From: Candidatus Schekmanbacteria bacterium RIFCSPLOWO2_02_FULL_38_14
GTDB lineage: Bacteria; Schekmanbacteria; GWA2-38-11
Direction: 5' to 3'
Length of the DNA: 30,049 bases
Assembly: GCA_001790855.1 (NCBI GenBank)
Contig: MGDH01000024.1
Span: 1 to 30,049, forward strand
Shown: one piece after another, positions 12,445 through 27,893 of the stretch
Layout of the letters: each line of letters opens with the position of its first letter
Numbering within the stretch: the first letter of the stretch is position 1
Notes under the pieces: model-generated
Database searches by the model: none
What the model saw: only the letters and a program-made list of their open reading frames with translations
What the model was told of the DNA's origin: nothing
Translations under genes and position numbers: made by a program

Positions 12445-13215
12445 CTAATTAGACTTCTTTTTTAAGTCTCCAGCAACCAGAAGCGCTGCAAGCCCGGCTA
12501 TCAAGAGAAGGAGAGTTCCTGGTTCTGGAACAGGCGCTGAACTTCCTCCCTCATTGCCACTTGGAGTGGGGTTGGAAACTGTTCCTGAATAGCTTGCATT
12601 GATCGTAAGCCCTGACCTTATTGCATAGTCAAGGGTTCCTGAATACTGCATTGTAACAGTTAATATATCCCCTTTGCTTGACCCTGCCAGCGCAGTAAGG
12701 ATAGCAGAATTAAGTGCAATGCCATCTGGAGATAGGACTACGTTAAGCAGATCTATCTTAAGCTCATTGGCATTTATATTACCTGTTCCTCCGCGGGTTC
12801 TCAGAGTAAGAGCTTTCAAATTTGCGGTTAGATAAGTTGTTGTACCTGTTGGATTCAGTATTTTAAATCCATCTGTGTAATAAGTTGGAGAAAACGGAAA
12901 CACTGTGTAGTCATCAAACGTTTCAGGAGTCCCTCCATTATCTAAAAAACTCGTTCCTCCCAGATGTAAATCAGCTATTTCAACCCTGTTCTTAGCAGTA
13001 TAAGGACCTGAAATTAAAAGAGGGTCAGCTGTAGGGTCTGAACTGAATATCCTTCCTGTTTTAAAGTCTAATAAATCAGAAAAGCCATCAGTTGGAAAAC
13101 TATCGCTTATTCTTATAGCTCCTCCAAAAGAGAAAGAAACAGGTGCTGCAAAGGAATTCTTTGTAAGCGAAAATGTTATTAGTACTGCTATAAATACTAT
13201 CAAATATTTTTTCAT
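12445..13215 (-). CDS. PEP-CTERM sorting domain-containing protein (2)
   Basis: A 256-residue exported protein. The signal peptide is KKYLIVFIAVLITFSLTKNSFAA. The C-terminus carries the exosortase sorting signal: VPEPGTLLLLIAGLAALLVAG, then a basic tail DLKKKSN. Exosortase should cleave near the PEP motif on the outer face of the inner membrane. The mature part is Ser/Thr/Gly-rich and predicted beta, with no known catalytic motif. It is clearly a paralogue of the next protein upstream: both share SFSFGGA-type starts, IFSSDP/IFNSDPE, FPFSPTYYTDGFKI/FDFNPTYYASGFRV, and a repeated KALTLRTRGGTG/EALTLTTNAGEG segment. It lies 49 bases downstream of that gene and probably shares its mRNA. No exosortase gene is in the window. 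Confidence 0.9.
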   Translation of the reverse strand: MKKYLIVFIAVLITFSLTKNSFAAPVSFSFGGAIRISDSFPTDGFSDLLDFKTGRIFSSDPTADPLLISGPYTAKNRVEIADLHLGGTSFLDNGGTPETFDDYTVFPFSPTYYTDGFKILNPTGTTTYLTANLKALTLRTRGGTGNINANELKIDLLNVVLSPDGIALNSAILTALAGSSKGDILTVTMQYSGTLDYAIRSGLTINASYSGTVSNPTPSGNEGGSSAPVPEPGTLLLLIAGLAALLVAGDLKKKSN

Positions 13216-13264
13216 ATACAGTGCTTTCTATCAACAACAACCCAAAAAGTTAACCCAGCAAAAA

Positions 13265-13981
13265 CTATCCTCTCTTTATTCTCTTAACACCTGCTAATAC
13301 AACCAGTCCAGCACCTAAAAGCAGAAGTGTGGCAGGTTCTGGAACTGGAACTGATGCTGTGGTTGTAGTGGCAGGTTCTGGAACTGAAACTGATGCTGTT
13401 CCTGATCCTATGGTTGTAACTGAAGTTCCAGCATTTATTGCTGTAGCTAAATTACCGTTATATTGGAGTGTGAGTGTAAGTATTCCACCTATAGAGCTTG
13501 AGTTAAACGCATCAAGCACATCAGAGCCCAATGCCAAACCTGCAGTGGTAACATTGATATTAAACAGGTTTATCAAAAGCTCGCTGTTTACAGTTCCCTC
13601 CCCTGCATTGGTAGTAAGGGTTAAAGCCTCCAAATCAGCTATAAGCAAATCCGTGCTGCTGCCATTCTGAACTCTGAAACCACTCGCATAATAGGTTGGA
13701 TTAAAATCAAATAATGTCATGTTGCCAATTGTAGACCATGTACCCGCAAGCGTAAGGTTGCTGATTTCAACATTATTATACAGAATATTATCATCCTCAG
13801 GGTCGGAGTTGAATATGGTCTGGGTATCAAATGAGATTAATTCTGAAAAGCCATTTAAGTTTGGATCTGTAATATATGTTGCCCCTGCAAAGGAAAAGGA
13901 AACTGCTTCAACCTGTTTTTCAAATAGGCAAAGTGCTAGTGTAAGGAATAAAAGAGTAAAAACTATTATATTTTTTTTCAT
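13265..13981 (-). CDS. PEP-CTERM sorting domain-containing protein (1), with duplicated PEP motif
   Basis: A 238-residue exported protein with signal peptide KKNIIVFTLLFLTLALCLFEKQVEA. It has a C-terminal sorting signal VPEPATLLLLGAGLVVLAGV followed by KRIKRG. A second VPEPAT lies 13 residues earlier (SVPEPATTTTASVPVPEPATL), made by a 39-bp DNA duplication. The body is beta-rich and Thr/Asn-rich, like its paralogue downstream. An excellent AAGGAGG sits before the ATG. The upstream gap has a sigma-54-type promoter and two matching inverted repeats, which fits control by the PrsK/PrsR two-component system known from PEP-CTERM organisms; those regulators are not encoded here. Confidence 0.92.
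   Translation of the reverse strand: MKKNIIVFTLLFLTLALCLFEKQVEAVSFSFAGATYITDPNLNGFSELISFDTQTIFNSDPEDDNILYNNVEISNLTLAGTWSTIGNMTLFDFNPTYYASGFRVQNGSSTDLLIADLEALTLTTNAGEGTVNSELLINLFNINVTTAGLALGSDVLDAFNSSSIGGILTLTLQYNGNLATAINAGTSVTTIGSGTASVSVPEPATTTTASVPVPEPATLLLLGAGLVVLAGVKRIKRG
13329..13399. repeat. 39-bp tandem duplication inside the PEP-CTERM gene
   Basis: A 32-base segment starting at 13329 recurs at 13368 with one mismatch, a period of 39 bp or 13 codons. It duplicates the coding segment for the VPEPAT motif without breaking the frame. Confidence 0.9.
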
Positions 13982-14953: not shown

Positions 14954-15256
14954 TTACCATCTGCTGTTTCTGTTATTTCTTCCGCCCCCGTCATTGCGTT
15001 CTCTGCTCTCCATAGGACGCGCCTCATTAACTACAATTTTTCTACCATTAAGCTCAGTTCCGTTAAGAGCTGCGGTAGCTTTCTGAGCATCTTCATCAGA
15101 CTTCATCTCCACAAAGCCAAATCCCTTTGACTGGCCTGTGTATTTGTCAGAAATTACCTTTCCTGACTCAACAGCACCATGCTGAGAAAAAAGTTCTACT
15201 AATTGTCCCTCACTCAATGAATAAGGAAGACTGCCCACATACAATTTTTTACCCAT
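14954..15256 (-). CDS. RRM-domain RNA-binding protein (2)
   Basis: A 100-residue paralogue of the protein at 4986-5327. RNP2 (KLYVGSLPY) and RNP1 (KGFGFVEM) are unchanged. RRM differences include Phe14 to Leu, Tyr26 to His, and NETQIEGRK to NGTELNGRK. The tail is shorter and more polar (RERNDGGGRNNRNSRW) than the long glycine run of protein 1. As an RNA chaperone it should bind single-stranded RNA. It keeps the same promoter layout and leader as its twin but in the opposite orientation, about 10 kb away. Two paralogues with one shared leader suggest common control, perhaps cross-regulation. Confidence 0.94.
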   Translation of the reverse strand: MGKKLYVGSLPYSLSEGQLVELFSQHGAVESGKVISDKYTGQSKGFGFVEMKSDEDAQKATAALNGTELNGRKIVVNEARPMESRERNDGGGRNNRNSRW

Positions 15257-15439
15257 ATAACCTCCAAAAGTTAGGGTTTTCTTGAGACTCAGATTAATTC
15301 AATGGGATTAAAGTGGTGAAGATACTCTGGTAAGGATAAATCTTTCCAAGCTTTCCGATTAAAATCCGATTCACAAGCAATTCAAATCCGGGTCTTTTAA
15401 TTAAATTCTTACTTGCCACCAGACCCAAAGGTAACAAGA
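15257..15439 (-). ncRNA. Conserved mRNA leader of RRM gene 2 (candidate cis-regulatory RNA)
   Basis: Counterpart of the leader at 4802-4985. The conserved block (15257-15426 on the minus strand) is again 170 nt and keeps the GGGTCT/AGACCC stem (15421-15426 with 15390-15395), the CCGGATT...AATCGG pairing, CAGAGTATCTTC and CTGAGTCTCAAG. Differences cluster between these blocks, which is what a structured RNA would show. It ends in TTGGAGGTTAT before the ATG. Confidence 0.65.
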
Positions 15440-15512: not shown

Positions 15513-16388
15513 TTAAATTATTAATTTTTTATTCTTCAGAATTTCTAATGGTGAAACAAGGTGTTTTTTTAGGCCTAATTCTTTGACACCCGATCCAAAA
15601 GCCAATCCAAGAAGCTGGGAAAAATAAAAGACTGGCAGGTCATATCTTGCATTATATTTTTCAAAAATATCATTCTGCCTTGTATCAAGGTTTGCATGGC
15701 ACAGAGGGCAGGCAACTGATATTGCTTCTGCGCCTACATCTTTAGCATTTTGAAGAATGAGATTTGTAAGCCTTAGCACAGACTCAGTCCTTGCAAGGGC
15801 AAAGCTTGCGCCACAACAGTCAGTCTTGTAAGACCAGTCTAAAACATTTGCACCACAGGCTTTTAAAATCTCGTCCATGCTCTCAGGATATTCGCAATTA
15901 TCAAATGCCATAACCTTTGGAGGTCTTGTGACAAGGCAGCCATAATAACAAACAACCTTTAAACCATTTAATGATTTTCTGACCAGAGAGTTGATTTTTT
16001 CAAGCCCGACATCATTTATAAGTATATCAAGGGGATGCCTTACCCTTACTTTCCCTCCGTATGAGTAATCAATTACTTTTTTGACTTGTTCCTCCAAAAC
16101 CTTGTCATGCTCAATCTCATAGACAGCAGTCTTTAAGCTCTGAAAACAGGCAGCGCACGGCACAGCAACTTCTGAAAAATTTCCTTTCTCAACAAGAGAA
16201 AGATTTTTAATCGGGAGTGCTGCTGATAAAACCTTTGAAGTCGCATGTGCAGGCGTTGTTCCGCAACAGATCCAATCAGGAACTTCAAAAAGTTCCAAAT
16301 TTAACTTTTTAAAAACAACTTTTACTGACGCATCATATTCTGATGCTGTCGAATGAAGAGAACACCCCGGGTAGTATGCATAGGTCAT
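15513..16388 (-). CDS. Heterodisulfide reductase-like subunit B (HdrB1)
   Basis: HdrB carries the disulfide-reducing site: two CCG domains binding unusual non-cubane [4Fe-4S] clusters. Both motifs are complete in these 291 residues. The first is Cys9-X31-Cys41Cys42-X35-Cys78-X2-Cys81; the second is Cys151-X39-Cys191Cys192-X34-Cys227-X2-Cys230. It is the last gene of the operon and overlaps hdrC1 by four bases (ATGA), so the two are coupled. In a bacterium without coenzymes M and B the substrate is unknown; it may be another thiol or disulfide. Cytoplasmic, partner of HdrC1 and probably HdrA1. Confidence 0.93.
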   Translation of the reverse strand: MTYAYYPGCSLHSTASEYDASVKVVFKKLNLELFEVPDWICCGTTPAHATSKVLSAALPIKNLSLVEKGNFSEVAVPCAACFQSLKTAVYEIEHDKVLEEQVKKVIDYSYGGKVRVRHPLDILINDVGLEKINSLVRKSLNGLKVVCYYGCLVTRPPKVMAFDNCEYPESMDEILKACGANVLDWSYKTDCCGASFALARTESVLRLTNLILQNAKDVGAEAISVACPLCHANLDTRQNDIFEKYNARYDLPVFYFSQLLGLAFGSGVKELGLKKHLVSPLEILKNKKLII

Positions 16389-16945
16389 AGTTTTTTACCT
16401 TCAATCTCCAATGCCTTTTCAAAAATTTTTTTCACTTCCTTGGCGCTCCTTGTTCTCTCGGGCAGTATTTTAAATTTGCCTTTTAATCCCATCCTATAGC
16501 CAAGCCTTAAATCCTTAAAATACTCACCTGTTGCAAGTTTCAGCGATGTAATCATTCCGACCTCATACATTCTTCCAAATCTTCTTATGTTTTTTAATGC
16601 AATTCTGTAAAAAAGTGGTATCTCTTTAACTTCATCAGGCACTACTATTCCTTCTTTTATTGCAAGGTGCCGGACACTATCCATCAGTTTTGCTATATCA
16701 ACACCCTGAGGACATCGCGTTGTGCAGGTTTCACAGGAAGCGCATACCCATATAGTTTTGCTGTTTATGACCTTATCTTTCAGTCCAAGGCGAATTGCGT
16801 GGACAATCTGGGTCGGAGAATAATCCATCTCCTCAGCCATGGGGCATCCGGCAGTGCATTTTGTGCATTGATAGCAGAGATTTACATTCTGAACTGATTC
16901 TTTTTCTATCTCTTTTCTAAACACTGAATCCGGATTAATTTTCAT
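16385..16945 (-). CDS. Heterodisulfide reductase-like subunit C (HdrC1)
   Basis: HdrC is the electron wire between the HdrA flavoprotein and HdrB. The 186-residue protein has two CxxCxxCxxxCP ferredoxin motifs: Cys24/27/30/34 (CYQCTKCTAGCP) and Cys68/71/74/78 (CASCETCTTRCP). A C-terminal helical extension follows that is longer than in HdrC2. No membrane segment is present, so it is soluble and unlike DsrM/HdrE-coupled forms. It overlaps hdrB1 by four bases and lies 147 bases after mvhD1. Confidence 0.92.
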   Translation of the reverse strand: MKINPDSVFRKEIEKESVQNVNLCYQCTKCTAGCPMAEEMDYSPTQIVHAIRLGLKDKVINSKTIWVCASCETCTTRCPQGVDIAKLMDSVRHLAIKEGIVVPDEVKEIPLFYRIALKNIRRFGRMYEVGMITSLKLATGEYFKDLRLGYRMGLKGKFKILPERTRSAKEVKKIFEKALEIEGKKL

Positions 16946-16962
16946 ACAAAAATCTTAGTTTT

Positions 16963-16985
16963 GACAGGCGGGACGCCTATCCTGC
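16963..16985. repeat. GGCGGGAC-type short repeat between hdrC1 and mvhD1
   Basis: GACAGGCGGGACGCC followed by TATCCTGC is related to the hairpin repeat at 22206-22230 (GATAGGCGGGACATTCC). It lies in the 16946-17092 gap, which otherwise holds only a small GCAGACC hairpin near 17040. Confidence 0.45.
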
Positions 16986-17092
16986 TATTGAACAATTACA
17001 TTCTAAAAAGCCTTTATATGGCTGTCCGTTTTTTTTGGCAGACCAAGGGGTCTGCTGCTACAATTTGGGCAGAGCTATGCACTGTTTTCTGT

Positions 17093-17560
17093 CTATTGTA
17101 TCCTGTATTCTGCATTCTTTTTCCTGATTGGATTCATCCCTAACTTCCTTGCCCTTTCAGTCATCTCAGATGCAGCCTCGGCAAAAGCTGTACCCATTGA
17201 GGAAGACATATTGAACATCTCCAACCTTTCTCCACCAATTCCTATCTCATCAAGAAATTTTTTCAGGCTTAAAATTCTTTTTTTTGCCCTCATATTACCC
17301 TCAAGATAGTGGCAGTTTCCTTCAAGACATCCTGCCACAAAAACTGCATCAGCGCCTTTTTCAAAAGCCTTTAAAATATAGATTACATCAACCTTTCCTG
17401 TACACGGAATTCTTATTATTTTAACATTTGCTGGGTATTGCAGCCTCATTGAACCTGCTAAATCTGCAGCAGCAAAAGCACAGAAGTAACAGCAAAATGC
17501 CAAAACCTCAGGCTCGAAATACTCATTTGTTTCAACTTTTTCTTTATCTGCCTGTTCCAT
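17093..17560 (-). CDS. MvhD-like [2Fe-2S] electron-transfer subunit (MvhD1)
   Basis: MvhD passes electrons from a hydrogenase or other donor to HdrA through a [2Fe-2S] cluster. The usual cysteines are present: LAFCCYFCAFAAADLAG (Cys23, 24, 27 from the chosen start), IPCTGKVD (Cys53), and AGCLEGNCHYLEGN (Cys78, 83). I chose the ATG at 17560 (MEQADKEK), giving 155 residues. The longer frame from 17617 adds MKFELLIGFDNIDL, which is encoded by an AAATTCAAA-type repeat and is probably not native. No hydrogenase or formate dehydrogenase adjoins, so the donor is likely the GltD-like domain of HdrA1 just upstream. Confidence 0.9.
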   Translation of the reverse strand: MEQADKEKVETNEYFEPEVLAFCCYFCAFAAADLAGSMRLQYPANVKIIRIPCTGKVDVIYILKAFEKGADAVFVAGCLEGNCHYLEGNMRAKKRILSLKKFLDEIGIGGERLEMFNMSSSMGTAFAEAASEMTERARKLGMNPIRKKNAEYRIQ

Positions 17561-17589
17561 ATTATTTTCTTGCCGCAAATCGATATTGT

Positions 17590-17720
17590 CAAAACCAATC
17601 AAAAGTTCAAATTTCAAAATCCAAATGTCAAATGAATGTCAAAATCTAAATACCAAATTTTCTTATCCATTTGAACTTGGGATTTCATTTGAACTTTGAG
17701 CTTTGGCATTTGAAATTAAA
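17590..17720. repeat. AAATTCAAA-type inverted low-complexity repeat
   Basis: AAGTTCAAATTTCAAAATCC on one side and CATTTGAACTTTGAGCTTTG on the other form a loose inverted repeat. The same words recur at 26077-26187. It occupies the gap between mvhD1 and hdrA1 and runs into the 3' end of hdrA1, where it encodes the tail SNAKAQSSNEIPSSNG. Confidence 0.7.
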
Positions 17721-20700
17721 CCATTCTCCTCCTCAACCTCAAAACTCTCAACCTTTGCCACTACCTGTTCATCAGTATAATGGAGAAGCTGAATGGCTTT
17801 GTTCGGACACTCTGAAGCACATATACCACACCCCTGGCACTGAGCGACCTCAATGTGTGCTGCCCTGTCAAGAATTCTTGGAACGTGATAGGGGCAAGTT
17901 CTCACACATGTAAGACAAGTTGCACACAGGTCATCATTTACAACTGCAACTGAACCGCCAACGCTTAATTCATTCTTTGACAAGATAGTGTTTGCCCTTG
18001 ATGCAACAGCTTCAGCTTGTGCAATGCTTTCCTCAATAAACTTAGGATATTGTGAAATACCGCAAAGGAATATCCCTTCAGAAGCAAAATCAACAGGCCT
18101 GAGCTTCATATGCGCCTCAAGGAAAAAATTCTCTTTTGTCAAAGGAACTTTTAAAAGCGGTGCAAGTTTTTCGTTGTCAGGATGAGGAATTGTTGCCATG
18201 CTTAAAACCAAAATCTCAGAATTCAACTCAATCTCCTCCCTCATTACCGGATCAAACACCTTAACGCTAAACGCCGAATGCTTAACACTATCAACAACCG
18301 GTGGCTTCTCCTTCTCATACCTTATAAACAGAATTCCCTTTTCCCTTGCCTTGGTATAATAGCCCTCTTTAAACCCGTAAGTTCTTATATCGCGGTAAAG
18401 TATGGTAATTCTTGCATCAGGATTAATCTCTTTTATCTTTAAAGCATTCTTTATTGCTTCTGTGCAGCATACCCTGCTGCAATAGGGTCTCTCTTTATTC
18501 CTTGAACCAACGCACTGTATCATTACTATTTCTTTTGCATTCTTTATTTTATCATCACTGCTGTACAGTTTATTCTCAAGTTCTAACTGTGTAATTACTC
18601 TTTCATCTTTTCCGTATTCAAACTCGCTTCCCTTGTATTCCGCTCCTCCTGTTGCAACTACAACAACACCGCAATCAATATCTTTTTCTCCACCGTTGCC
18701 ATAGGAATTAATTTTCGCTTTAAAATTCCCAATAAAGCCTGAAAAGGATTCAACCTGAGAGTTCAGGAAAATGCTGATGTTTTTATTGCCCTCTGCTTTT
18801 TTAATCAATTCGCCCAGAAACTTTTCCGGGTTTTCTCCCTCTACCGTATATTTAATATTCTTTAGATTTCCTCCAAGCTCTCCTTCCTTTTCTACAAGGG
18901 TAACCTTAAACCCCTGGTTTGCCAGACTCATTGATGTAACCATTCCCGAAACTCCGCCTCCTATAACAAGCGCCTCCTTTTTCAACTCAAGAGATAATTT
19001 ATAGAGGGGATTTATAAACCTTGCACGGCTAACAGCCATTTTGGCAAGGGATTTAGCTTTTTTCAAAGCCTTATCAGTCTCATGCATATGGACCCATGCA
19101 CACTGGTCCCTTATATTAGCCATTTCAAAAAGGAATGGATTTAAGCCTGCCTCTTTTAAAACCTCCTGAAAAAGAGGCTCATGGGTTCTTGGTGTACAGG
19201 AGGTCACTACAACCCTATTCAGGTTCTCTTCTTTAATCTTTTGCTTTATCCTCTCAATCGTATCTGCACCGCAGGTATAAAGGTTTTCTTCGGCATAGAC
19301 TACAGACGGAAGTTTTTTAACATAGTCAACAACACTCGGAACATCTATTACTCCTCCAATATTTGTTCCGCAACGGCAGACAAAAACTCCTATCCTTGGC
19401 TCTTCTTTTGACACATCTGTTTCAGGAGGATATTCTTTTGCCTTTACTAAAGTATTTCTTTCTTCTGCTAAAAGCTCTATTGATTTGGATGCTGCACCTG
19501 AAGCCTGGATAACGGTTTCAGGAATATCCTTTGGTTCTAAAAAGGGTCCGCAGGCATAAATACCCTTGCGGTTCGTTTCAAGAGGCTGCCATTTGCTGCT
19601 GCCGCAAAAATTAAATTTATCAAGCTCAATCCCAAACTTATCAGACAGCTCCTTCACATCTTTTCTTGGAACAATTCCGCAGGAAAGGATTACCAAATCA
19701 AACTCTTTATTTAAAATCTTTCCTGTCTCCTCCTGGTACTGAACCCCAAGGTTTTTTGTTGCCGGAATCTCTTTGACTGATGAAGGCCTGCACCTTGTAT
19801 AGATTACGCCGTTTTTTTCAGCCCTTTCACAGTAATCATCAAATCCCTTTCCATGAGCCCTGAGGTCAATAAAAAATATCTGGCATTCTACATCAGGAAT
19901 ATGTTCCTTAACAAGAATTGCCTGCTTGGTCGCATACATACAGCATACTGAAGAGCAGTAGTCCCTTTCAGAATCTCTTGAGCCTACGCACTGTATCCAC
20001 GCAATCCTCTTTGGTTCCTGCTTATCAGAGGGTCTCACTATTTTACCCAGATAAGGACCGCTGGCACTCAAAATCCTCTCAAACTCAAGGCTTGATAAAA
20101 CATTTGGGAAACGGTTGTGACCAAACTCACCCTTGAGGTCAGGGTCAAAAAGATCAAAGCCCGGAGCAAGAATTACTGACCCTACCTGCAGGTCAATGAC
20201 CCTGTCAAAATCCTGCTCGTGGCTAATTGCCTTTGGCTCGCAGGCTGCTTCGCAAAGCCTGCAGTCAGAGCATATTGAGCAGTTTAAACACCTTAATGCC
20301 TCTTCAAGAGCCTGTTCTTCAGTGTAGGCTTTTTCAATTTCTTTGAAATTGCCTATCCTCTCATTCACAGAAAGCTGGAGTGGCTTGGCTCTTTCTTTTT
20401 TTGGAATCCTTTTTTCAAGGTCAGGCTCGCCTATAGTTTTCTCCATTGCCTGAGAAATCTCAATTCCTCTGAAAGTATTATGAATTGCCAGAGCTGCTTT
20501 TTTCCCATCAGCAATTGCTTCAATTGCTGATGCCGGACCGCGCACAGCATCACCACCGGCAAAAATTCCCTTAATGCCTGTTTCCTGTGTCAAAGGATTG
20601 ACCTCAATGGTCCCCCTTCTGGATACATTTATTGCGCTGTTGCTATCAATAAATGAAAGGTCTGAAGCCTGCCCGATTGAAACAATGACTGTATCCGCTT

Positions 20701-22147
20701 CAATCAAAGATTCAGTTTCTGCAAAGAATGAGGGATTAAACCTTCTTTCCACATCAAATACTTCCTTGACTCTTAGTGTAACAAGCCCTTTAACCTTATT
20801 ATTCTCAACCACAATTTCTTTTGGTCCAACTGAACAGAAAAATTTTATCCCCTCTTCCTCTCCCTCTTCTGTCTCCCACGGATGAGCCGGCATTTCATCT
20901 CTTGATTCAAGGCAGGCTAAAGAAACATCTTTTGCGCCAAGCCTCAATGCTGTCCTTGCAACATCCATTGCTACATTTCCACCGCCAATAACCAGTACCT
21001 TCCTGCCTATTCTGGCTTCTTTGCCAAGTCTCACATCTCTTAAAAAATCCACACCCCACAGGACACCCTCTGCATCATTGCCAGGAATATTCAGCCTTTG
21101 AGCCTTTTGCGTGCCAACTGCAAGAAATACAGCCTGGTAATCCTTCCGTAAGTCATCTAAAGTAAAATCTCTGCCAAGCATTGAGTTAAGTTTTATCTCA
21201 ACCCCTGTCTTTTCTATATTTCCTATCTCCTCATCCAAAGATTTCTTTGGGACTCTGTACTCAGGTATTCCAACTGCAAGCATTCCTCCTCTTACAGGAA
21301 GGGTTTCAAATATTGTAACCCTATATCCCATTCCTCTTAAATAATAGGCGCATGAAAGACCAGCAGGTCCTGCTCCTATAACAGCAACCTTTTCCTTATA
21401 TTTTATCTCTGATGCCTGGGAAGGGACAAAATCCTCTGAGCCGTAAACCTTATCAACTAAAAATCTCCTTAGGGATCTTATTGAGATAGGAGAGTCAACT
21501 TTGCTCCGCCTGCATTCTGATTCACATGGGTGGTGGCACATACGGCTGCAAACTCCTGGCAGGGGATTATCTCTCATTATCATCTCAAGGGCTTCCCTGT
21601 ATTTTTTTTGAGCAATAAGGGCAATGTAGCCCTGAACGCTTATCCCTGCCGGACATGTAACTTTGCAGGCAGAAAATCCTTTTTTATCTATTACATAACC
21701 ATTGGGCACTGCTTGGGGATAACTTTTGTACACTGCATTTCTGTTCCCTATCCCCATATCAAATTCACTTCCAACCTCAACAGGACAAACCTTTTTGCAG
21801 TCACCGCAAGCCGTACACTTGGCAAGGTCAACAAAACTCTGCCTTTGCCTCAAAGTTATTTTGAAGTTTCCGGCTTCTCCGTCTACTCTTACTATATCTG
21901 AACTTGGAAGTATTTCGATATTAAGATGCCTTCCTGCGCCTACGAGGCGAGGAGATATTGTGCACATGGCGCAGTCATTTGTAGGAAAGGTTTTGTCAAG
22001 CTGGGCCATTCTTCCGCCAATGAACGGGCTCTTTTCCACAAGGTAGACCTTAAATCCTGAATCTGCAAGGTCAATGGCTGCCTGCATTCCCCCAATGCCT
22101 CCGCCAAGCACCATTACAGCGCCGATTTTGTTATCTTTCTCAGCCAT
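17663..22147 (-). CDS. HdrA-type multi-flavin protein fused with a GltD-like NAD(P)H module (HdrA1)
   Basis: A 1494-residue electron-bifurcation-type flavoprotein. Order: HdrA FAD loop VLGGGIGGMQAA (13-24) and ferredoxin CTACGDCKKVCP (111-122). Next is an inserted GltD-like module (about 155-615) with Cys161/165 and Cys200/204/208/212, FAD loop VIGAGPAGLSCA (about 256-267), NAD(P) loop VIGGGNVAMD and GIFAGGDAVRGPASA. The first HdrA half then resumes with CLNCSICSDCRLCEAACEP (620-637) and a cluster motif Cys720-X10-Cys731-X3-CysCys. A second HdrA half follows from about 917: VFVCRCGTNIGG, FAD loop VIGGGVSGM (1061-1069), CVGSRN...YCSRVCC, and two C-terminal ferredoxins (CATCLTCVRTCP, CQGCGICASECP). 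It should split electrons from NAD(P)H between ferredoxin and an HdrB disulfide site; this is inference from HdrA and NfnB-type chemistry. The last ~16 residues are repeat-derived. Confidence 0.93.
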   Translation of the reverse strand: MAEKDNKIGAVMVLGGGIGGMQAAIDLADSGFKVYLVEKSPFIGGRMAQLDKTFPTNDCAMCTISPRLVGAGRHLNIEILPSSDIVRVDGEAGNFKITLRQRQSFVDLAKCTACGDCKKVCPVEVGSEFDMGIGNRNAVYKSYPQAVPNGYVIDKKGFSACKVTCPAGISVQGYIALIAQKKYREALEMIMRDNPLPGVCSRMCHHPCESECRRSKVDSPISIRSLRRFLVDKVYGSEDFVPSQASEIKYKEKVAVIGAGPAGLSCAYYLRGMGYRVTIFETLPVRGGMLAVGIPEYRVPKKSLDEEIGNIEKTGVEIKLNSMLGRDFTLDDLRKDYQAVFLAVGTQKAQRLNIPGNDAEGVLWGVDFLRDVRLGKEARIGRKVLVIGGGNVAMDVARTALRLGAKDVSLACLESRDEMPAHPWETEEGEEEGIKFFCSVGPKEIVVENNKVKGLVTLRVKEVFDVERRFNPSFFAETESLIEADTVIVSIGQASDLSFIDSNSAINVSRRGTIEVNPLTQETGIKGIFAGGDAVRGPASAIEAIADGKKAALAIHNTFRGIEISQAMEKTIGEPDLEKRIPKKERAKPLQLSVNERIGNFKEIEKAYTEEQALEEALRCLNCSICSDCRLCEAACEPKAISHEQDFDRVIDLQVGSVILAPGFDLFDPDLKGEFGHNRFPNVLSSLEFERILSASGPYLGKIVRPSDKQEPKRIAWIQCVGSRDSERDYCSSVCCMYATKQAILVKEHIPDVECQIFFIDLRAHGKGFDDYCERAEKNGVIYTRCRPSSVKEIPATKNLGVQYQEETGKILNKEFDLVILSCGIVPRKDVKELSDKFGIELDKFNFCGSSKWQPLETNRKGIYACGPFLEPKDIPETVIQASGAASKSIELLAEERNTLVKAKEYPPETDVSKEEPRIGVFVCRCGTNIGGVIDVPSVVDYVKKLPSVVYAEENLYTCGADTIERIKQKIKEENLNRVVVTSCTPRTHEPLFQEVLKEAGLNPFLFEMANIRDQCAWVHMHETDKALKKAKSLAKMAVSRARFINPLYKLSLELKKEALVIGGGVSGMVTSMSLANQGFKVTLVEKEGELGGNLKNIKYTVEGENPEKFLGELIKKAEGNKNISIFLNSQVESFSGFIGNFKAKINSYGNGGEKDIDCGVVVVATGGAEYKGSEFEYGKDERVITQLELENKLYSSDDKIKNAKEIVMIQCVGSRNKERPYCSRVCCTEAIKNALKIKEINPDARITILYRDIRTYGFKEGYYTKAREKGILFIRYEKEKPPVVDSVKHSAFSVKVFDPVMREEIELNSEILVLSMATIPHPDNEKLAPLLKVPLTKENFFLEAHMKLRPVDFASEGIFLCGISQYPKFIEESIAQAEAVASRANTILSKNELSVGGSVAVVNDDLCATCLTCVRTCPYHVPRILDRAAHIEVAQCQGCGICASECPNKAIQLLHYTDEQVVAKVESFEVEEENGLISNAKAQSSNEIPSSNG

Positions 22148-22205
22148 AGTCTTTCAATAGAGTATTGGATAAATTAAAATTTAAAAATCAAATATAAAAA
22201 TTACT

Positions 22206-22230
22206 GATAGGCGGGACATTCCTGTCCCGC
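22206..22230. repeat. GCGGGACA hairpin repeat between hdrA1 and mvhD2
   Basis: GCGGGACA-TTCC-TGTCCCGC (22211-22230) is a perfect 8-bp stem followed on the plus strand by AA and eight T. It mimics a terminator, but for the plus strand, antisense to the operon. A diverged relative lies at 16963. Confidence 0.75.
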
Positions 22231-22303
22231 AATTTTTTTTATTTGATAAGGATTAAGTTTTTTCTTAATTCTTACTTACTACTTAATTCTTAATCCTGAA
22301 TTC

Positions 22304-22744
22304 TCATTTTACATTTTGATTTTTGAATTTTGAACTTCCCCCAATGGGTCCAAGCTCAACAACCTTATCATTCATTCTCCTTACTAAATTAACAAATCTG
22401 TGTCCAGTATTTGAGGCTAAATTATAAATTTCCACCCGTTCCTTTTCAATTCCAATCTCTTCCAGAAGATTTTTTATGTAATCTATGCGCTTTTTTGCCC
22501 TGATGTTTCCGTGCAGATATTTGCAGTTGTCCTCATAGCAGGCAAGGACAAGCACACCATCAGCGCCTTTTTCAAATGCCTTCAGGATATGGTACACATC
22601 AACCTTCCCGCTGCAGGGCACCCTTATAATATTGATTCCTTCAGGATAAGGAATTTTCATCTTCCCTGCTAAATCCGCAGCTTCATAGGCTGAGTGATTA
22701 CAGCAAAATGTTATGATTTTTGGATTAAAACTTTTTTTATCCAT
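22304..22744 (-). CDS. MvhD-like electron-transfer subunit, cysteine-poor variant (MvhD2)
   Basis: A 146-residue paralogue of MvhD1 with matching AADLAGKM, IRVPCSGKVDVYHILKAFEKGADGVLVLAC and NCKYLHGNIRAKKR. The N-terminal motif reads FCCNHSAYEAADLAG, where MvhD1 has FCCYFCAFAAADLAG. The third cysteine of the CCxxC group is therefore Ser, which may weaken or change the [2Fe-2S] site. ATG 22744 is preferred over TTG 22747. The tail SSKFKNQNVK is encoded by AAATTC-type repeat sequence. It follows hdrA2 just as mvhD1 follows hdrA1, so it belongs to the second Hdr set. Confidence 0.88.
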   Translation of the reverse strand: MDKKSFNPKIITFCCNHSAYEAADLAGKMKIPYPEGINIIRVPCSGKVDVYHILKAFEKGADGVLVLACYEDNCKYLHGNIRAKKRIDYIKNLLEEIGIEKERVEIYNLASNTGHRFVNLVRRMNDKVVELGPIGGSSKFKNQNVK

Positions 22745-22791
22745 CAAAAAATCTTATCCATTATCAGTTTACTGAAAAAGTCTCTGTGACC

Positions 22792-22876
22792 GTCATTGCG
22801 AGGCAAAGCCGAAGCAATCTCCTTTTTAGCTATCAGACTTAATTGAGATTGCCACGCCCTTCGGGCTCGCAATGAC
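22792..22876. repeat. GTCATTGCGAG inverted repeat between mvhD2 and hdrA2
   Basis: GTCATTGCGAG (22792-22802) and CTCGCAATGAC (22866-22876) are perfect outer arms. GAAGCAATCTC and GAGATTGCCACG form inner arms, with CCCTTCGGG beside them. It can fold into a long cruciform or RNA hairpin. A decayed copy lies at 8675-8829. This kind of dispersed repeat is known from many bacterial genomes. Confidence 0.85.
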
Positions 22877-22911
22877 AATGGAAAAACGTCTTAAAGTATT
22901 GCATGATTTTT

Positions 22912-24597
22912 TCACAATACAAATCCCTCAATCTCAGCTATTATTCCTTCATCAGTATAAGTTCTCAATGTTATTGCGCTGTTCGGGCATTCGCTCGCGC
23001 ACACACCGCATGCCTGGCATGCAACTTCTGAAATTACTGCTGCCCGCGTATATGTTACTGCGCCGTGAGGGCAGACTCTCTGGCATGTCAGGCAGAGGGT
23101 GCATTTGTCTTTATCAATTGCCATTCTTTCCTTGTAACATTTTATTTTTCCCTTTAACAGTTCAAAAACCTTAATGCCTGCACTCTTTGCATCAGTTATT
23201 GCATCTGGAATTTCCTCTGTTCCGCGGCACGCGCCAGCAAAAAAGATTCCCTTTCTGTTTGATTCAACAGGGAAATAGTGAACATTGTTCCTCTGGAAAA
23301 ATTTTAAAGAATCAAAATCAACACCTAAGACTTCCCTCAAATTTTCGCAATCTCCAGACGGAATAATCTCTTCTTCAAGCACCAGAACATCACAGGGGAT
23401 TTTAATGATTGGGTTCAAAAACTCCTCAGATGCCTTCAAAGAAAGGTAGTAATCAAAAATAAGAGCAAAAAATTTATTATCTTTCAGCAAAAATTGCGGC
23501 GCTTTATTCTCAAATTTAAAAACAATAACCCCTTCATCTCTTACTCTTCTATAAAGATTCTCAAGCCCTTCTCCTGCAACAAAAGCATTTCTGCAGGCTA
23601 TAAAGACTCTGTTTTTATACTGCTCTTTTAAAAGCAATGAGTTTTTAAAAACCGTTCCTGTTGAAACCTTTGAAAATCTTCCAGTCATCCCTGTAATAAA
23701 AAGAACGTTAATATCTTCACCTCTTCCAAAGATTTTCCGGGCTTTTTCTTTATCTTTTAAAATCTCCTCAAGTTCAAGCTGTGTGATTATTCTTTCATCA
23801 GGATTTAAATTGTATGCCTCCTGCGGAAAGTATGTCTGGAACCCTGTTGCAACCACAACTGAACCAAACTGCTTTTCCAGAATTCTGCCACCGGCTTTTA
23901 TCCCTGCAATAAAATCCCCGCAGGAACCCTTTAAGCTTATGACTTCAGCGTTTGTTAAAATTTCAGCCTTTCCTTTAATTTCTTCTATCTTTTCTTCAAT
24001 AAACCTCTCAGGAGAAATTTCTGACTGATAAAACCTGTTAAGTCTTTTTACATTGCCTCCAAGCTCTTTCTCTTTCTCAACAACTGTAACCTTAAAGCCT
24101 GATTTGCTCAGCTCAATTGCCGTCTGAATTCCTCCAATCCCTCCTCCGATTATAAGAACCTCTTCCTGCGGCAAAACCTCTGATTCATATACAGGCACTG
24201 CTTTTCTGATTCTCTTCAAAGCCCCTCTTAATAAATTTAATGCTTTATTGGTTGCTTCATCAATGTCATTTATTATCCACGCACACTGCTCTCTGATGTT
24301 GCAGACAGCAACCAGATTTCCATCTATCCCTGCCTCCACCATAAGCCTTCCCCTGAACAGCTCCTCATACAATTTGGGCGAACAACCTCCAATCAGCACC
24401 CTGTTAGCTTTTTTCTCTTTAACCTTTACGATTAGACCGCTTAAACAATCTTCAGAACAAAGAAGTTCAGATTCCATAACAAAGGAAAGATCCTCTTCTT
24501 TTCCAAGGGCTTCCATTATTTTTGAAAAACTGAGACTCTTATTTAAACTCCCTGCACAGTTGCAAAGGAATACTGCTATTCTAACTTTTTCAGACAT
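22912..24597 (-). CDS. HdrA-like flavoprotein, C-terminal-half type, lacking one cluster motif (HdrA2)
   Basis: The 561 residues match the second half of HdrA1 from end to end. The N-terminal small domain is VRIAVFLCNCAGSLNKSL, followed by CNIREQCAWI and the FAD loop LIIGGGIGGIQTA (about 148-160). Two C-terminal ferredoxins are present (CTLCLTCQRVCP and CQACGVCASECP, from about 499). Where HdrA1 has IQCVGSRN...YCSRVCC, this protein reads ITGMTGRFSKVSTGTVFKNS (about 301-320). All four ligands of the cluster in the thioredoxin-reductase-like domain are therefore missing. ATG 24597 is preferred because GGGAG lies eight bases upstream; a TTG at 24612 is the longer option. It directly follows hdrA3, in the order of the fused protein. 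Confidence 0.9.
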   Translation of the reverse strand: MSEKVRIAVFLCNCAGSLNKSLSFSKIMEALGKEEDLSFVMESELLCSEDCLSGLIVKVKEKKANRVLIGGCSPKLYEELFRGRLMVEAGIDGNLVAVCNIREQCAWIINDIDEATNKALNLLRGALKRIRKAVPVYESEVLPQEEVLIIGGGIGGIQTAIELSKSGFKVTVVEKEKELGGNVKRLNRFYQSEISPERFIEEKIEEIKGKAEILTNAEVISLKGSCGDFIAGIKAGGRILEKQFGSVVVATGFQTYFPQEAYNLNPDERIITQLELEEILKDKEKARKIFGRGEDINVLFITGMTGRFSKVSTGTVFKNSLLLKEQYKNRVFIACRNAFVAGEGLENLYRRVRDEGVIVFKFENKAPQFLLKDNKFFALIFDYYLSLKASEEFLNPIIKIPCDVLVLEEEIIPSGDCENLREVLGVDFDSLKFFQRNNVHYFPVESNRKGIFFAGACRGTEEIPDAITDAKSAGIKVFELLKGKIKCYKERMAIDKDKCTLCLTCQRVCPHGAVTYTRAAVISEVACQACGVCASECPNSAITLRTYTDEGIIAEIEGFVL

Positions 24598-24614
24598 CAA
24601 CTCTGCTCCCAAAA

Positions 24615-24667
24615 GCAGGTCAGGAGACCTGCCTCTGCCCGGGTAGAATCGGGTCTCCTGACCCGAT
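24615..24667. repeat. Paired GGTCAGGAGACC hairpins
   Basis: GCAGGTC-AGGA-GACCTGC (24615-24632) and ATCGGGTC-TCCT-GACCCGAT (24648-24667) are two perfect stems whose loops are complementary. In effect they are inverted copies of one GGTCAGGAGACC element. They sit just upstream of the hdrA2 ribosome-binding site and could affect its translation. Confidence 0.8.
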
Positions 24668-24721
24668 ATATATAAAACCCCCGCTATTTGAAATTTAAAG
24701 CTCTAAATCCTAATATCTAAA

Positions 24722-24747
24722 TTACCTGCCTGCCGGCAGGCAGGTAA
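24722..24747. repeat. 26-bp perfect palindrome
   Basis: Each half is TTACCTGCCTGCC, with no spacer. A diverged relative (CCTGTCTGCCGACAGGCAGG) is at 8768-8787. It lies in the hdrA3-hdrA2 gap and could form a cruciform or RNA hairpin, possibly an mRNA processing or protection site. Confidence 0.9.
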
Positions 24748-24767
24748 ACAAATTCAAATGACATAAA

Positions 24768-26054
24768 TCAAAAACCGTTTTGAACATTTGGATTTTTGCA
24801 TTTTACATTTATTAAAACATTCTCCGCAGCTGCTATTCCCTGAGCTATTGATGCAGGGATATTTTTTGGTCCCTGACAGGCTCCGGCTATAAAAACATTA
24901 GGTTTATCTGTGAGTGTAAAATCACACGGGTCGGATGTTTGAAAAAATCCGCTTTCCCCTGTTTTAAGACCAAAAATCTTTCCAATCTTTTTTATGCTTT
25001 CTGCAGGGGTAATACCTATTGACAGCACAACCAAATCAAATTCCTCCTGCCTGTCTTCTCCTTTTTCTATGTCCTCATAATTTATAACTATGGATTTATC
25101 CTCTCTTTCCCCGACATCGCCCGGCATTGCCCTGACAAAATTTATTTCCTTTAAGCATTTTTCATAAAATAAAGAGGCTTCCTTTGAGAGGTTCTGCAAA
25201 TCCATGTAAAAAATTGAAACAGAAATTTCAGGACTCTCATTTTTTAAAACCTTTGCCATCCTCATTGCATAAAGGCAGCAGACCTGAGAGCAATAATCAT
25301 TTCCAATATTTATATCCCTGCTTCCAACACATTGAATGAAAGCAACTTTTTTTGGTATGGCATTGTCAGACGGTCTTCTTATTCCGTCCTTGAATCTTAG
25401 CTGTTCTTCAAGGTTAATCCCTGTTATCACATTTTGAAAAACCCCATATCTGTACTGAATACGCTTTTTTGCATCAAAAGGAGAAAACCCGCAGGCAACA
25501 ACAACAGAATCTGCGCCAACGCCGAATATTTCCTCCTTTTCACTATAATTAACTGCTTTTGCTGGACAGACCTTCTCGCACAAATTGCATTTTTCGCCTT
25601 TAAACCTGAGACATAAACCTTCATCTATGAAATAGGCTTTAGGAAGGGATTGCTGATGGACAATTCTTATAGCAGAACCATTAACAGGACAGACCTCCTT
25701 GCATAGTCCGCATGAAATACATTTCTCTAAGGAGACGTAGCGCGGAGTTTTTTTTATCTTTACATCAAATTTGCCCTCATTCTCAGAGGACTCAATTACT
25801 TCACATCCTGTTAAGATAATAATTCCATTCTGCATCTGCAAATCATTCATCTTAAGATTAACAATGCAGGCAGAACACTTGTTGCAGACCCCTGAAGCCT
25901 TGCAGCCATATCTTATTGCAAAGCCTCCGAGAGAATGTTCTTTCTCAACAAGATTTACCTCTGCGCCTGCTTTTGCAAGCTCGATTGCACATGCCACACC
26001 TGCAATTCCGCCACCGATTACTAAAACCTTTTTATCTATAGCTTTTATAACCAT
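24768..26054 (-). CDS. HdrA-like flavoprotein, N-terminal-half type (HdrA3)
   Basis: The 428 residues match the first half of HdrA1 without the GltD insert. FAD loop VIGGGIAGVACA is at 12-23. Ferredoxin motifs follow: CISCGLCKEVCP (112-123), then Cys148, CNLCEKVCP (156-164). The cluster motif Cys242-X12-Cys255-X3-Cys259Cys260 is intact, and a C-terminal FIAGACQGPKNIPASIAQG FAD-binding loop closes the fold. At 51-63 it has CKASGVCNKCSAC, four cysteines where HdrA1 has only DCAMC; this could hold an extra cluster. It resembles QmoA in size, but gene order points to a split HdrA. The last residues CKNPNVQNGF are encoded by AAATTC-type repeat. It lies between hdrB2 and hdrA2. Confidence 0.9.
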   Translation of the reverse strand: MVIKAIDKKVLVIGGGIAGVACAIELAKAGAEVNLVEKEHSLGGFAIRYGCKASGVCNKCSACIVNLKMNDLQMQNGIIILTGCEVIESSENEGKFDVKIKKTPRYVSLEKCISCGLCKEVCPVNGSAIRIVHQQSLPKAYFIDEGLCLRFKGEKCNLCEKVCPAKAVNYSEKEEIFGVGADSVVVACGFSPFDAKKRIQYRYGVFQNVITGINLEEQLRFKDGIRRPSDNAIPKKVAFIQCVGSRDINIGNDYCSQVCCLYAMRMAKVLKNESPEISVSIFYMDLQNLSKEASLFYEKCLKEINFVRAMPGDVGEREDKSIVINYEDIEKGEDRQEEFDLVVLSIGITPAESIKKIGKIFGLKTGESGFFQTSDPCDFTLTDKPNVFIAGACQGPKNIPASIAQGIAAAENVLINVKCKNPNVQNGF

Positions 26055-26074
26055 ATGATTTTTGCTCTAAGATT

Positions 26075-26188
26075 TAAAAGTTCAAATGCCAAAATCCAAA
26101 TATCAAATGAATGTCAAATTTCAAAACCAAAAACATTTAAATATTTGGACTTTGAATTTCATTTGAACTTTGAGCTTTGACATTCGAC
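26075..26188. repeat. AAATTCAAA-type inverted low-complexity repeat
   Basis: AAGTTCAAATGCCAAAATCC... and ...CATTTGAACTTTGAGCTTTG repeat the words seen at 17590-17720, and the two ends can pair. It fills the gap between hdrB2 and hdrA3. Confidence 0.75.
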
Positions 26189-26192
26189 AGTT

Positions 26193-27065
26193 TTATATCT
26201 TCTCCAGGAGTCCTTTGGTTTTGACAACATTGAGATGGAGCCCGAGTTCTTTGCTGTCAATTCCCATGGCAAGCCCTAAGAGTTGAGGATAAAAGAGAAC
26301 GGGTATTTCATATTTTGTCTGGAACTGCTCCTCTATTGACCGCTGGTTCCCATCATACATAACATTGCAGAAAGGACAGACAAGGCAAATTGCATCTGCC
26401 CCTGATTCCTTCATCCTATCCAGCTTTTCCTTTGAAAGAGAAAGAGATACCTTTTCCGCTATGGCAAGTATCCCGCCTCCACAGCACAGCATTCCATTCT
26501 GATGAGATACATAATTTGCCCCTGTAATCTTTATAAGCTCCTCAAGGGTCTGAGGGATTTCCGGGTCATCAAATTTATCATAAATTTTGGATGGCCTTAC
26601 ATAATGGCATCCATAATGGGCGGTAATTGATAGGTTTTTTAATTCCCTTGTTACTGTCCTTTTTATCTTCTCAATTCCTATGTCCTCATAGAGAATTCTC
26701 CCTAAATGCTTAACTTTAACTTTGCCATTATACTCTCTGTTTATCTCCTTAAGTTTTCTATTAACCTCCTCTCGTAACTCCTCGTTTTCATTAAGCTCCC
26801 TGCTCATTTCTGTAAGGTTCTCTGTACAGGCACTGCAGATTGAACATATTGTCTCAATGCCTCTCTCTTCTGCAAGGCTCAAATTTCTTGCGGCAAGAAG
26901 CAGTGCTGTCTCCTTGCTAACAGCCTTCAGGGGAAAACCGCAGCAGGAAAATTCTCCAATATCAATAAACTTAATCCCGAGTTTCTCTCCTATTTTTCTT
27001 GTTGATATCTCATACTGCCTTGCCCTTGCAGGAATCGTGCAGCCCAAAAATAAAGCTAACTCCAT
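26193..27065 (-). CDS. Heterodisulfide reductase-like subunit B (HdrB2)
   Basis: A second HdrB, 290 residues, with both CCG cluster motifs complete. They are Cys9-X31-Cys41Cys42-X34-Cys77-X2-Cys80 (with an extra Cys74) and Cys153-X40-Cys194Cys195-X34-Cys230-X2-Cys233. It is clearly homologous to HdrB1 (YPQLLGLAMGIDSKELGL versus FSQLLGLAFGSGVKELGL) but well diverged, so the two may differ in substrate. GGAGA lies seven bases before the ATG. It follows hdrC2 and precedes hdrA3. Two complete HdrB proteins imply two disulfide-reducing sites in one operon. Confidence 0.93.
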   Translation of the reverse strand: MELALFLGCTIPARARQYEISTRKIGEKLGIKFIDIGEFSCCGFPLKAVSKETALLLAARNLSLAEERGIETICSICSACTENLTEMSRELNENEELREEVNRKLKEINREYNGKVKVKHLGRILYEDIGIEKIKRTVTRELKNLSITAHYGCHYVRPSKIYDKFDDPEIPQTLEELIKITGANYVSHQNGMLCCGGGILAIAEKVSLSLSKEKLDRMKESGADAICLVCPFCNVMYDGNQRSIEEQFQTKYEIPVLFYPQLLGLAMGIDSKELGLHLNVVKTKGLLEKI

Positions 27066-27079
27066 AATACGTTCTCCAG

Positions 27080-27242
27080 TTTAAATCAAAATCCTAAATT
27101 CTAATATCTAAATCCTAAACAATATCAAAATTCGAAATTTCAATTTTCAAAATTGTTTTGAATTCTTGATTTTTGTCATTTGAATTTGTTTACCCCGCTT
27201 AGAAATTTTAATTTCTAACGGGGTTTAGAATTTAGGATTTAG
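27080..27242. repeat. AAATTC-type repeat with CCCCG hairpin
   Basis: Low-complexity words such as AAATCCTAAATTC run inwards from one side and GAATTTAGGATTTAGAA from the other, giving a long inverted repeat. At its centre ACCCCG...TTAGAAATT pairs with AATTTCTAA-CGGGGT (27192-27224). It fills the hdrC2-hdrB2 gap. Confidence 0.75.
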
Positions 27243-27247
27243 AATTT

Positions 27248-27742
27248 TCATTTTTTTATATACCTATCTAAACCTGACATCTCAAAAATCTTACTTACAT
27301 CCTCAAGCTTTGTTGGAAGAAAAGGTAATCCTGCTTTTTCTCTTTTCTTGTTATCAAAATCCTCAAGCACATACACCCTTCCGCTCGCTTTTACAAAATT
27401 TGCAATCTGAACATATGAAGGGTGGATATAGCCTGCCTCTGTGGCAAGATTCTTGATTACCGCCATTAAATCAGAAATAAGCACATCCTGTGGGCAGCGC
27501 TCCTGACAATTATAGCAGGCTGTGCACAGCCACACAAAATCGCTTTTAAAAACCCTCTCCTTCATTCCAAGAATTGCCATCCTGATAATCTGCCTCGGAT
27601 TAAACTTCTCGTCAATTTTTCTCACAGGACAGCTTGCAGTGCAGGTGCCGCAGGAAAAGCAGTTTTTTATCTTCTCCCCTCCATGCCTTTTTGCAATTTC
27701 ATATTTAAAATTACTGTCCAGTTCGTCAATATTTATTTCCAT
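27248..27742 (-). CDS. Heterodisulfide reductase-like subunit C (HdrC2)
   Basis: A 164-residue soluble protein with two [4Fe-4S] motifs, Cys28/31/34/38 (CFSCGTCTASCP) and Cys73/76/79/83 (CTACYNCQERCP), the HdrC pattern. It is the first gene of the Hdr array, with GAGGA about seven bases before the ATG. No clear promoter was found in the gap upstream, which also carries REP-like palindrome copy 2. It should connect an HdrA protein with HdrB2. HdrC1 lies at the other end of the operon. Confidence 0.92.
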   Translation of the reverse strand: MEINIDELDSNFKYEIAKRHGGEKIKNCFSCGTCTASCPVRKIDEKFNPRQIIRMAILGMKERVFKSDFVWLCTACYNCQERCPQDVLISDLMAVIKNLATEAGYIHPSYVQIANFVKASGRVYVLEDFDNKKREKAGLPFLPTKLEDVSKIFEMSGLDRYIKK

Positions 27743-27818: not shown

Positions 27819-27893
27819 AAGAAAAAGGGGACGGTTCTCTTTTTTCCATCACAAAGATAATATATCAAAAAAGAGAACCGTCCCCTTTTTCTT
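27819..27893. repeat. REP-like palindrome, copy 2
   Basis: A perfect 27-bp inverted repeat (27819-27845 and 27867-27893) with a 21-base loop. It has the same GGGGACGGTTCTCTTT core as 1190-1243. It sits between the divergent hdrC2 and MATE genes. The loop differs from copy 1, so the arms are the conserved part. Confidence 0.9.

Follow-up and report, generated by a model that had tools for sequence, protein, structure and literature searches.

Why would a single bacterial operon encode two non-identical sets of heterodisulfide reductase (HdrABC) and MvhD subunits? The question is raised by a stretch of 30,049 nucleotides (hereafter the window, i.e., positions 1 to 30,049 of contig MGDH01000024.1) from Candidatus Schekmanbacteria bacterium RIFCSPLOWO2_02_FULL_38_14, in which nine minus-strand open reading frames (ORFs; 15513-27742) follow one another in the order C2-B2-A3-A2-D2-A1-D1-C1-B1. 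This order had been claimed in an earlier note, and the ORFs together with their family assignments (Pfam and NCBIfam) confirm it: B1 and B2 are HdrB-type CCG proteins, C1 and C2 HdrC-type dicluster ferredoxins, D1 and D2 MvhD/FlpD proteins, and A1, A2 and A3 belong to HdrA. We consider that the operon may encode one soluble complex of two modules, a NADH-oxidising, bifurcating half (module 1, A1-D1-C1-B1) and a second, asymmetric half, probably non-bifurcating and equipped with an HdrCB of its own (module 2, C2-B2-A3-A2-D2), a reading on which we would place an even bet and which builds on gene order, domain architecture, ligand patterns, the distinctness of clades and co-occurrence.

The disulfide-reducing branches of both sets are intact. 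B1 (15513-16388, minus strand like all genes of the operon; 291 aa; the last gene) and B2 (26193-27065; 290 aa; 296 bits to TIGR03288) keep both CCG cluster motifs, with ligands at C9-CC41/42-C78xxC81 and C151-CC191/192-C227xxC230 in B1, and at C9-CC41/42-C77xxC80 and C153-CC194/195-C230xxC233 in B2, while C1 (16385-16945; 186 aa) and C2 (27248-27742; 164 aa; 121 bits to TIGR03290; the first gene) each keep two CxxCxxCxxxC motifs. The ligands thus agree with the earlier claim of two intact HdrBC branches. D1 (17093-17617; at most 174 aa, with a TTG start and an ATG ca. 19 codons inward; PF02662, 2e-47) and D2 (22304-22747; 147 aa; PF02662, 1e-46) are MvhD/FlpD-type [2Fe-2S] proteins. That the sets are non-identical also holds, as they share 34-50% identity subunit by subunit (B1/B2 34%, C1/C2 37%, D1/D2 50%, the first, short unit of A1 against A3 34%, its second, long unit against A2 35%).

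The gene descriptions of the HdrA proteins had to be corrected, in that A1 (17663-22147; 1494 aa) consists of two fused HdrA units with a GltD/NfnB-type insert and A2 is without one cluster motif. The first unit of A1 is an HdrA without N-domain, into whose ferredoxin domain a GltD/NfnB-type NAD(P)H- and FAD-binding domain is inserted (ca. residues 158-630, 20258-21676, borders approximate); the second (ca. residues 912-1494, 17666-19414) has an N-domain, a thioredoxin reductase (TrxR)-type domain with a four-cysteine cluster and equivalents of E356 and K409, and a C-terminal ferredoxin. The insert has a score of 554 bits against NCBIfam PRK12771 and structural matches to NfnA/NfnI, and after the nucleotide-binding Rossmann strand it reads CLES, as opposed to YRR in many relatives, a motif that may lean to NADH. 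E356 and K409 are the residues that separate bifurcating from non-bifurcating HdrA (PMC9430772, PMC12054007); their equivalents occur in both TrxR domains of A1, together with the adjoining four-cysteine cluster. The HdrA of Moorella thermoacetica (1487 aa) has the same layout and shows NADH:viologen activity (PMC9430772), and the HdrL of Desulfobacterium autotrophicum has an A1-like Hdr/GltD layout (PMC2702500). By its sequence, A1 is this known Moorella-type HdrA ("HdrL"), and because it shares the architecture of the Moorella protein, NADH is by analogy the likely electron donor. The earlier note had named NAD(P)H as a likely donor, which the insert and the architecture support; it was too pessimistic in leaving the donor open, though its caution remains justified for the acceptors.

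Among 438 candidate stretches with relatives of A1, 80 were kept. These come from Planctomycetota, Chloroflexota, deltaproteobacterial lineages, Spirochaetes, TA06 and others, and most contain module 1 without module 2. In Planctomycetota the order is A1-D1-C1-B1-MetV-MetF, in Proteobacteria and Chloroflexota MetVF occurs with a fused CB, other Chloroflexota have a [NiFe]-hydrogenase, and FrhB-like and Flox-like genes are found in deltaproteobacterial metagenome-assembled genomes (MAGs). With neighbours that change to this extent, A1 is best described, at the level of gene content, as a plug-in NADH module with changing partners. HdrA is split still further in five loci (L196, L198, L199, L200, L201), the GltD-bearing piece and the rest being separate genes, and these operons hold up to five or six HdrA pieces consecutively.

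How the HdrA units pair can be read from what each of them lacks. All units were aligned to a reference from 5odc_A and 8rvu_a, and the ligand and residue assignments rest on this alignment. The short units, i.e., A3 (24768-26054; 428 aa) and the first half of A1, have neither N-domain nor C-terminal ferredoxin and keep Cys197, the eight cysteines of the inserted ferredoxin domain and the four-cysteine TrxR cluster. The long units, i.e., A2 (22912-24612; 566 aa; with a TTG start, the exact start being uncertain) and the second half of A1, retain the C-terminal ferredoxin as well as the cysteines of the N-domain, and have neither Cys197 nor the inserted ferredoxin domain. Such complementarity of N-domain and Cys197 marks an HdrA heterodimer, in which Cys197 completes the N-domain cluster of the partner (Chadwick et al., PMC9012536). 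Because each set already holds complementary units, the natural HdrA pairs would be A3 with A2 and the first with the second half of A1, i.e., within each set and not across sets. A natural HdrA-HdrA fusion without GltD (L045; 50-61% identical to A1 by segment) was modelled with a predicted local distance difference test score (pLDDT) of 92 and a predicted template modelling score (pTM) of 0.92, the relative placement of its halves being confident; the first half superimposes on HdrA residues 149-575 at 1.2 Å and the second on residues 2-651 at 3.4 Å, although the model does not by itself prove a methanogen-type interface.

The pair in set 2 differs from that in A1 in the residues associated with bifurcation. 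Lys409 is replaced by Arg in all eight A3-type sequences, and the C-x-C-x3-CC motif of the TrxR domain, which binds the flavin-side [4Fe-4S] cluster, is lost in all eight A2-type sequences, so that the combination of E356, K409 and a four-cysteine cluster is found in neither unit of set 2 (A3 has Arg409, A2 has no cluster). The A2 of the window keeps the equivalents of E356 and K409 despite the loss of the motif; in G003, one of two relatives from the same taxonomic order described below, these residues and the N-domain cysteines are also gone from A2, and in the other, G002, the A2 ORF is without N-domain. Because A2 has lost further features in these relatives, it appears to be degenerating into a protein that carries the C-terminal ferredoxin. 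A3 and A2 stand in clades of their own (support 100 each), separate from QmoA, QmoB and both halves of A1, in a maximum-likelihood tree with 84 units. The structure model of A2 is moderate (pLDDT 72, pTM 0.59), with HdrA as its best structural match. Taken from sequence comparison, the A3/A2 pair is possibly a new element, module 1 being of an already known kind.

The lineage is sparsely sampled, and only three of the 60 nearest genomes that we compared are of the same order. Two of these three, G002 and G003, both from another family, share the order of the nine genes, which lie on a single contig in G002 and on two contigs, split within A1, in G003; the third, a genome 70% complete, has no match to A1. 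Thus, the gene order is not due to chance, and the search for it that the earlier note had called for supports its view of one conserved gene unit. All nine ORFs in G003 abut or overlap (from an 8 bp overlap to a 20 bp gap), and the 4 bp overlap of D2 and A1 spans the boundary between the sets, which is the best evidence in these sequences for one transcript. C2 and B2 are the best-conserved members of set 2 (70-74% identity to G002/G003; C2 73-74%), and A3, A2 and D2 have only 33-49% identity. In the window itself the gaps are 45-182 bp, the overlap of C1 and B1 excepted, and a scan for promoters and terminators within the operon gave matches near chance level. The spacers contain palindromes and A+T-rich repeats (27819-27893, 24613-24663, 22748-22911, 26055-26192 and 17601-17713), e.g., a perfect 27-bp inverted repeat, AAGAAAAAGGGGACGGTTCTCTTTTTT, part of which recurs at 1219-1239, a GGTCAGGAGACC palindrome, which recurs on the same contig near 39 kb, and AAATTTGACATTTGGATTT-type repeats; because the same genes abut in G003, these look like later insertions.

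Outside the order, A3-A2-D2 recurs beside A1. It adjoins an A1-type gene in all nine genomes where it was found: that of the window, G002, G003, TA06 SM23_40 (L053), G267 (L192), G219 (L193), two Desulfarculaceae MAGs (L079, L080) and a Syntrophobacterales MAG (L107, A2 not called), and module 2 without an A1-type gene was not seen in the searched genomes. The earlier note would have been contradicted by homologues with the two sets always in separate loci, which is the opposite of what these nine genomes contain. Judged by sequence and neighbourhood, set 2 is a diverged partner that recurs beside A1 in unrelated bacteria. In TA06 SM23_40 (L053/L194) a single protein combines A2 and D2, and a gene for 132 aa, of unknown kind, lies between this fusion and A1.

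We infer NADH specificity, the direction of electron flow and the acceptor, and arrive at the following mechanism. A hydride from NADH would be taken up by the FAD in the GltD insert of A1, which carries an HdrA pseudo-dimer of its own, and the clusters of the inserted ferredoxin domain would conduct electrons to the TrxR-type FAD, where they would be split. One branch would run from the TrxR cluster through C1 to B1; the other, at low potential, would leave via ferredoxin, or via the C-terminal ferredoxin and MvhD (D1). Module 2 would be a second asymmetric HdrA pair, in which A3 keeps FAD and clusters, and A2 keeps the MvhD-facing C-terminal ferredoxin, its flavin-side cluster being lost. 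Because of Arg409 in A3 and this loss in A2, we consider module 2 most likely a one-way wire (D2, C-terminal ferredoxin of A2, A3, C2, B2) that would give module 1 a second outlet or inlet and would not be a second independent bifurcating enzyme. More tentatively, we propose that A3/A2 could belong to an undescribed class of HdrA pairs, asymmetric and non-bifurcating, whose docking on an HdrL-type bifurcating module would yield a double-Hdr supercomplex, one NADH site feeding two HdrBC outlets.

Several points weigh against the reading of the operon as one two-module complex. That the modules form a complex is our extrapolation, and the K409R exchange might still permit bifurcation. The co-occurrence in nine genomes is partly biased, as the loci numbered L053-L132 were found with A1 as the query, and only G267 and G219, found by a search with A2, are free of this bias. 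With regard to MetVF as acceptor (see below), metVF lies outside the operon, the MetF and MetV trees leave unresolved a link between the organism's own MetVF and the MetVF linked to A3/A2, and there are bacteria in which ferredoxin may serve MetVF by itself (PMC8515935, PMC8760232). Without acetyl-CoA synthase, a large dedicated methylene-tetrahydrofolate (methylene-THF) reductase complex would have no obvious catabolic use, and two complete HdrBC branches would not be explained by one acceptor.

The operon could instead encode two independent soluble Hdr enzymes that are merely co-transcribed, module 1 coupling NADH to ferredoxin and a disulfide-type acceptor, and module 2 having another donor (via D2) and acceptor (via B2). 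In both sets the B and C proteins are intact, with an identity of only 34-37% between the sets, and the majority of the 80 loci have module 1 without module 2, its partners being MetVF, [NiFe]-hydrogenase or Flox-like, so that it can work alone. However, module 2 is never alone in the searched genomes, its A2 is without the flavin-side cluster and its A3 without the bifurcation Lys, and no donor gene for D2 adjoins, and we therefore regard independence as a real but rather unlikely alternative. The presence of two unlike sets in one conserved gene unit would also suit a mixed dimer with one HdrA from each set in place of the methanogen homodimer, which is how the earlier note had pictured the two sets, as unlike halves of a pseudo-symmetric dimer. 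This proposal is not upheld: each set already has a complementary HdrA pair, the Cys197/N-domain complementarity being satisfied inside it, the halves of A1 are physically fused, and such a fused pair models with a confident relative placement in L045, all of which makes a dimer across sets very unlikely.

Scarcely credible, in our view, is a Qmo-like role for module 2, with A3 and A2 as QmoA and QmoB and HdrCB replacing QmoC to serve adenosine-5'-phosphosulfate (APS) reductase as in Gram-positive sulfate reducers. A3 and A2+D2 do match the domain layouts of QmoA and QmoB, and QmoAB-HdrBC systems are known (PMC10504309); a first table of ligands even looked Qmo-like. Set 2 as Qmo was rejected in the main all the same, since the residues and clades of genuine QmoA and QmoB differ: K409 is present in QmoA as well as QmoB of sat-apr-qmo loci, the four-cysteine cluster is present in QmoB, A3 and A2 fall outside both clades, and neither aprA over the cut-off nor qmoC was found in the genome or its order. 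Neighbours of the operon suggest a further alternative, in which a lipoyl-type carrier protein or a tungsten aldehyde oxidoreductase (AOR), and not MetVF, would be the partner of the Hdr branches. An AOR-family tungsten oxidoreductase gene (L042:283-2235) lies directly upstream of C2 in G003, on the same strand as the operon, and downstream of B1 (L043:3138-8626), again on the same strand, are genes for DUF3088, a membrane protein, an LbpA/GcvH-like protein, a lipoate ligase and two radical-SAM proteins; G002 has an LbpA-like set ca. 19 kb from the operon, and ca. 8-11 kb beyond C2 the contig of the window (C24, ca. 35.1-39.0 kb; L051:5026-8972) encodes two GcvH-domain proteins, NrfD and a 4Fe-4S ferredoxin. 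The adjacency of AOR is limited to one genome, and the search for LbpA, the lipoate-binding partner in the sHdr sulfur-oxidation system, in the organism's own genome gave only the canonical GcvH at the grade of the LbpA-like proteins of G002/G003, besides the two weaker GcvH-domain proteins on the same contig. We thus take the AOR and LbpA-like neighbours in G003 as leads, not as evidence for the organism of the window, and judge this alternative improbable. One of the two GcvH-domain proteins of the contig has a lysine at the position of the lipoyl site and the other has none; Cys-rich GcvH-domain proteins of a similar kind occur near A1-type genes in Desulfacinum (L096, L114) and in L106.

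Which acceptors, then, would the two outlets of the preferred two-module complex serve? The earlier statement that no hydrogenase, Fdh, Flox or MetF gene adjoins is correct within the window, where MetV is absent too, but metVF is present elsewhere in the genome and adjoins the same modules in other phyla. The organism's metVF is a separate pair on contig C15, i.e., outside the cluster in which it would be expected for an Hdr-type methylene-THF reductase, and metV-metF is likewise a separate pair away from the operon in G002 and G003; in poorly resolved MetF/MetV trees its MetF is nearest to those of G002/G003, followed by L054 and L192. metV-metF adjoins A1 and A3-A2 in L079, L192 and L193, the order in L107 is A1-metV-metF-A3, and in L080 MetV alone adjoins the pair. 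Because both modules adjoin metVF in other lineages, MetVF (methylene-THF) is by analogy the best candidate acceptor among known partners, and the presence of two HdrBC branches, both complete, points to a further acceptor. Other partners were rejected: acetogenesis, since acetyl-CoA synthase was not found in the genome, which was searched one protein family at a time; DsrC as the disulfide substrate, since there is none in the order; and a [NiFe]-hydrogenase (MvhAG) as donor, since the PF00374 matches in the order are only NuoD-like, [FeFe]-hydrogenase not having been searched for.

Compared with known systems, the Moorella thermoacetica HdrABC-MvhD-MetVF complex is alike in the HdrA-GltD-HdrA architecture and size, in the adjoining MvhD, HdrC and HdrB and in the E/K residues of both TrxR domains; the Schekmanbacteria genome differs in having metVF on another contig, an extra HdrA pair with MvhD and HdrCB, and no acetyl-CoA synthase. 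The HdrL of Desulfobacterium autotrophicum HRM2 is likewise an Hdr/GltD fusion beside MvhD, and the tandem hdrL/hdrA locus VIII of this strain, with an HdrL-type and another HdrA gene together with HdrB/HdrC, is already on record (PMC2702500), whereas in the Schekmanbacteria operon the second HdrA consists of two separate proteins (A3, A2) that have lost catalytic features, and HdrCB and MvhD are encoded once per module. The tandem or fused HdrA heterodimers of anaerobic methanotrophic archaea (ANME; PMC9012536) and type II/III HdrA (PMC12054007) share the complementary loss of N-domain and Cys197 and the GltD placed in the inserted ferredoxin domain, but here two such pairs occur in one operon. 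QmoABC and QmoAB-HdrBC have the same layout of short HdrA, long HdrA, MvhD domain and HdrC/HdrB, and differ by the presence of AprAB and QmoC, by key residues and by separate clades. The methanogen HdrABC-MvhAGD has the HdrB CCG clusters, HdrC, MvhD and the HdrA fold in common with the operon, in which, however, there is no hydrogenase, HdrA comes in complementary unlike halves and a NADH-type insert is present. In the Hdr literature compared, we found no description of the TrxR-cluster loss of A2 combined with K409R in A3. A literature search for a double cluster of HdrL and HdrA pair with two HdrCB returned only HRM2 locus VIII and Chloroflexi metVF loci, most subscription journals being outside its coverage, so that an earlier description is possible.

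As regards the surroundings, the gene upstream of C2 (27953-29314) is by sequence a MATE-type transporter in divergent orientation, and the gene after B1 (14954-15256) encodes an RRM protein whose 5' leader repeats the leader of a paralogue at 4986; the operon therefore ends at B1. The upstream leaders of the two RRM RNA-binding genes, 4810-5327 (plus strand) and 14954-15432 (minus strand), are 86% identical over ca. 176 bp, and to judge by this similarity they possibly represent a conserved regulatory leader. Two tandem secreted proteins with PEP-CTERM-like tails are encoded at 12445-13981 (minus strand).

For the Moorella-type NADH-oxidising Hdr complex, the second electron acceptor has been unknown since it was proposed in 2014 (PMC9430772, PMC7325909). 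An A3/A2 pair that stands beside module 1, has lost residues associated with bifurcation and has a full HdrCB outlet is a concrete candidate destination for the other electrons, and it is a natural setting in which to ask which HdrA flavin, of the two, is required. The operon, which comes from a lineage with poor sampling, looks like a variation on a known energy-saving machine of anaerobes.

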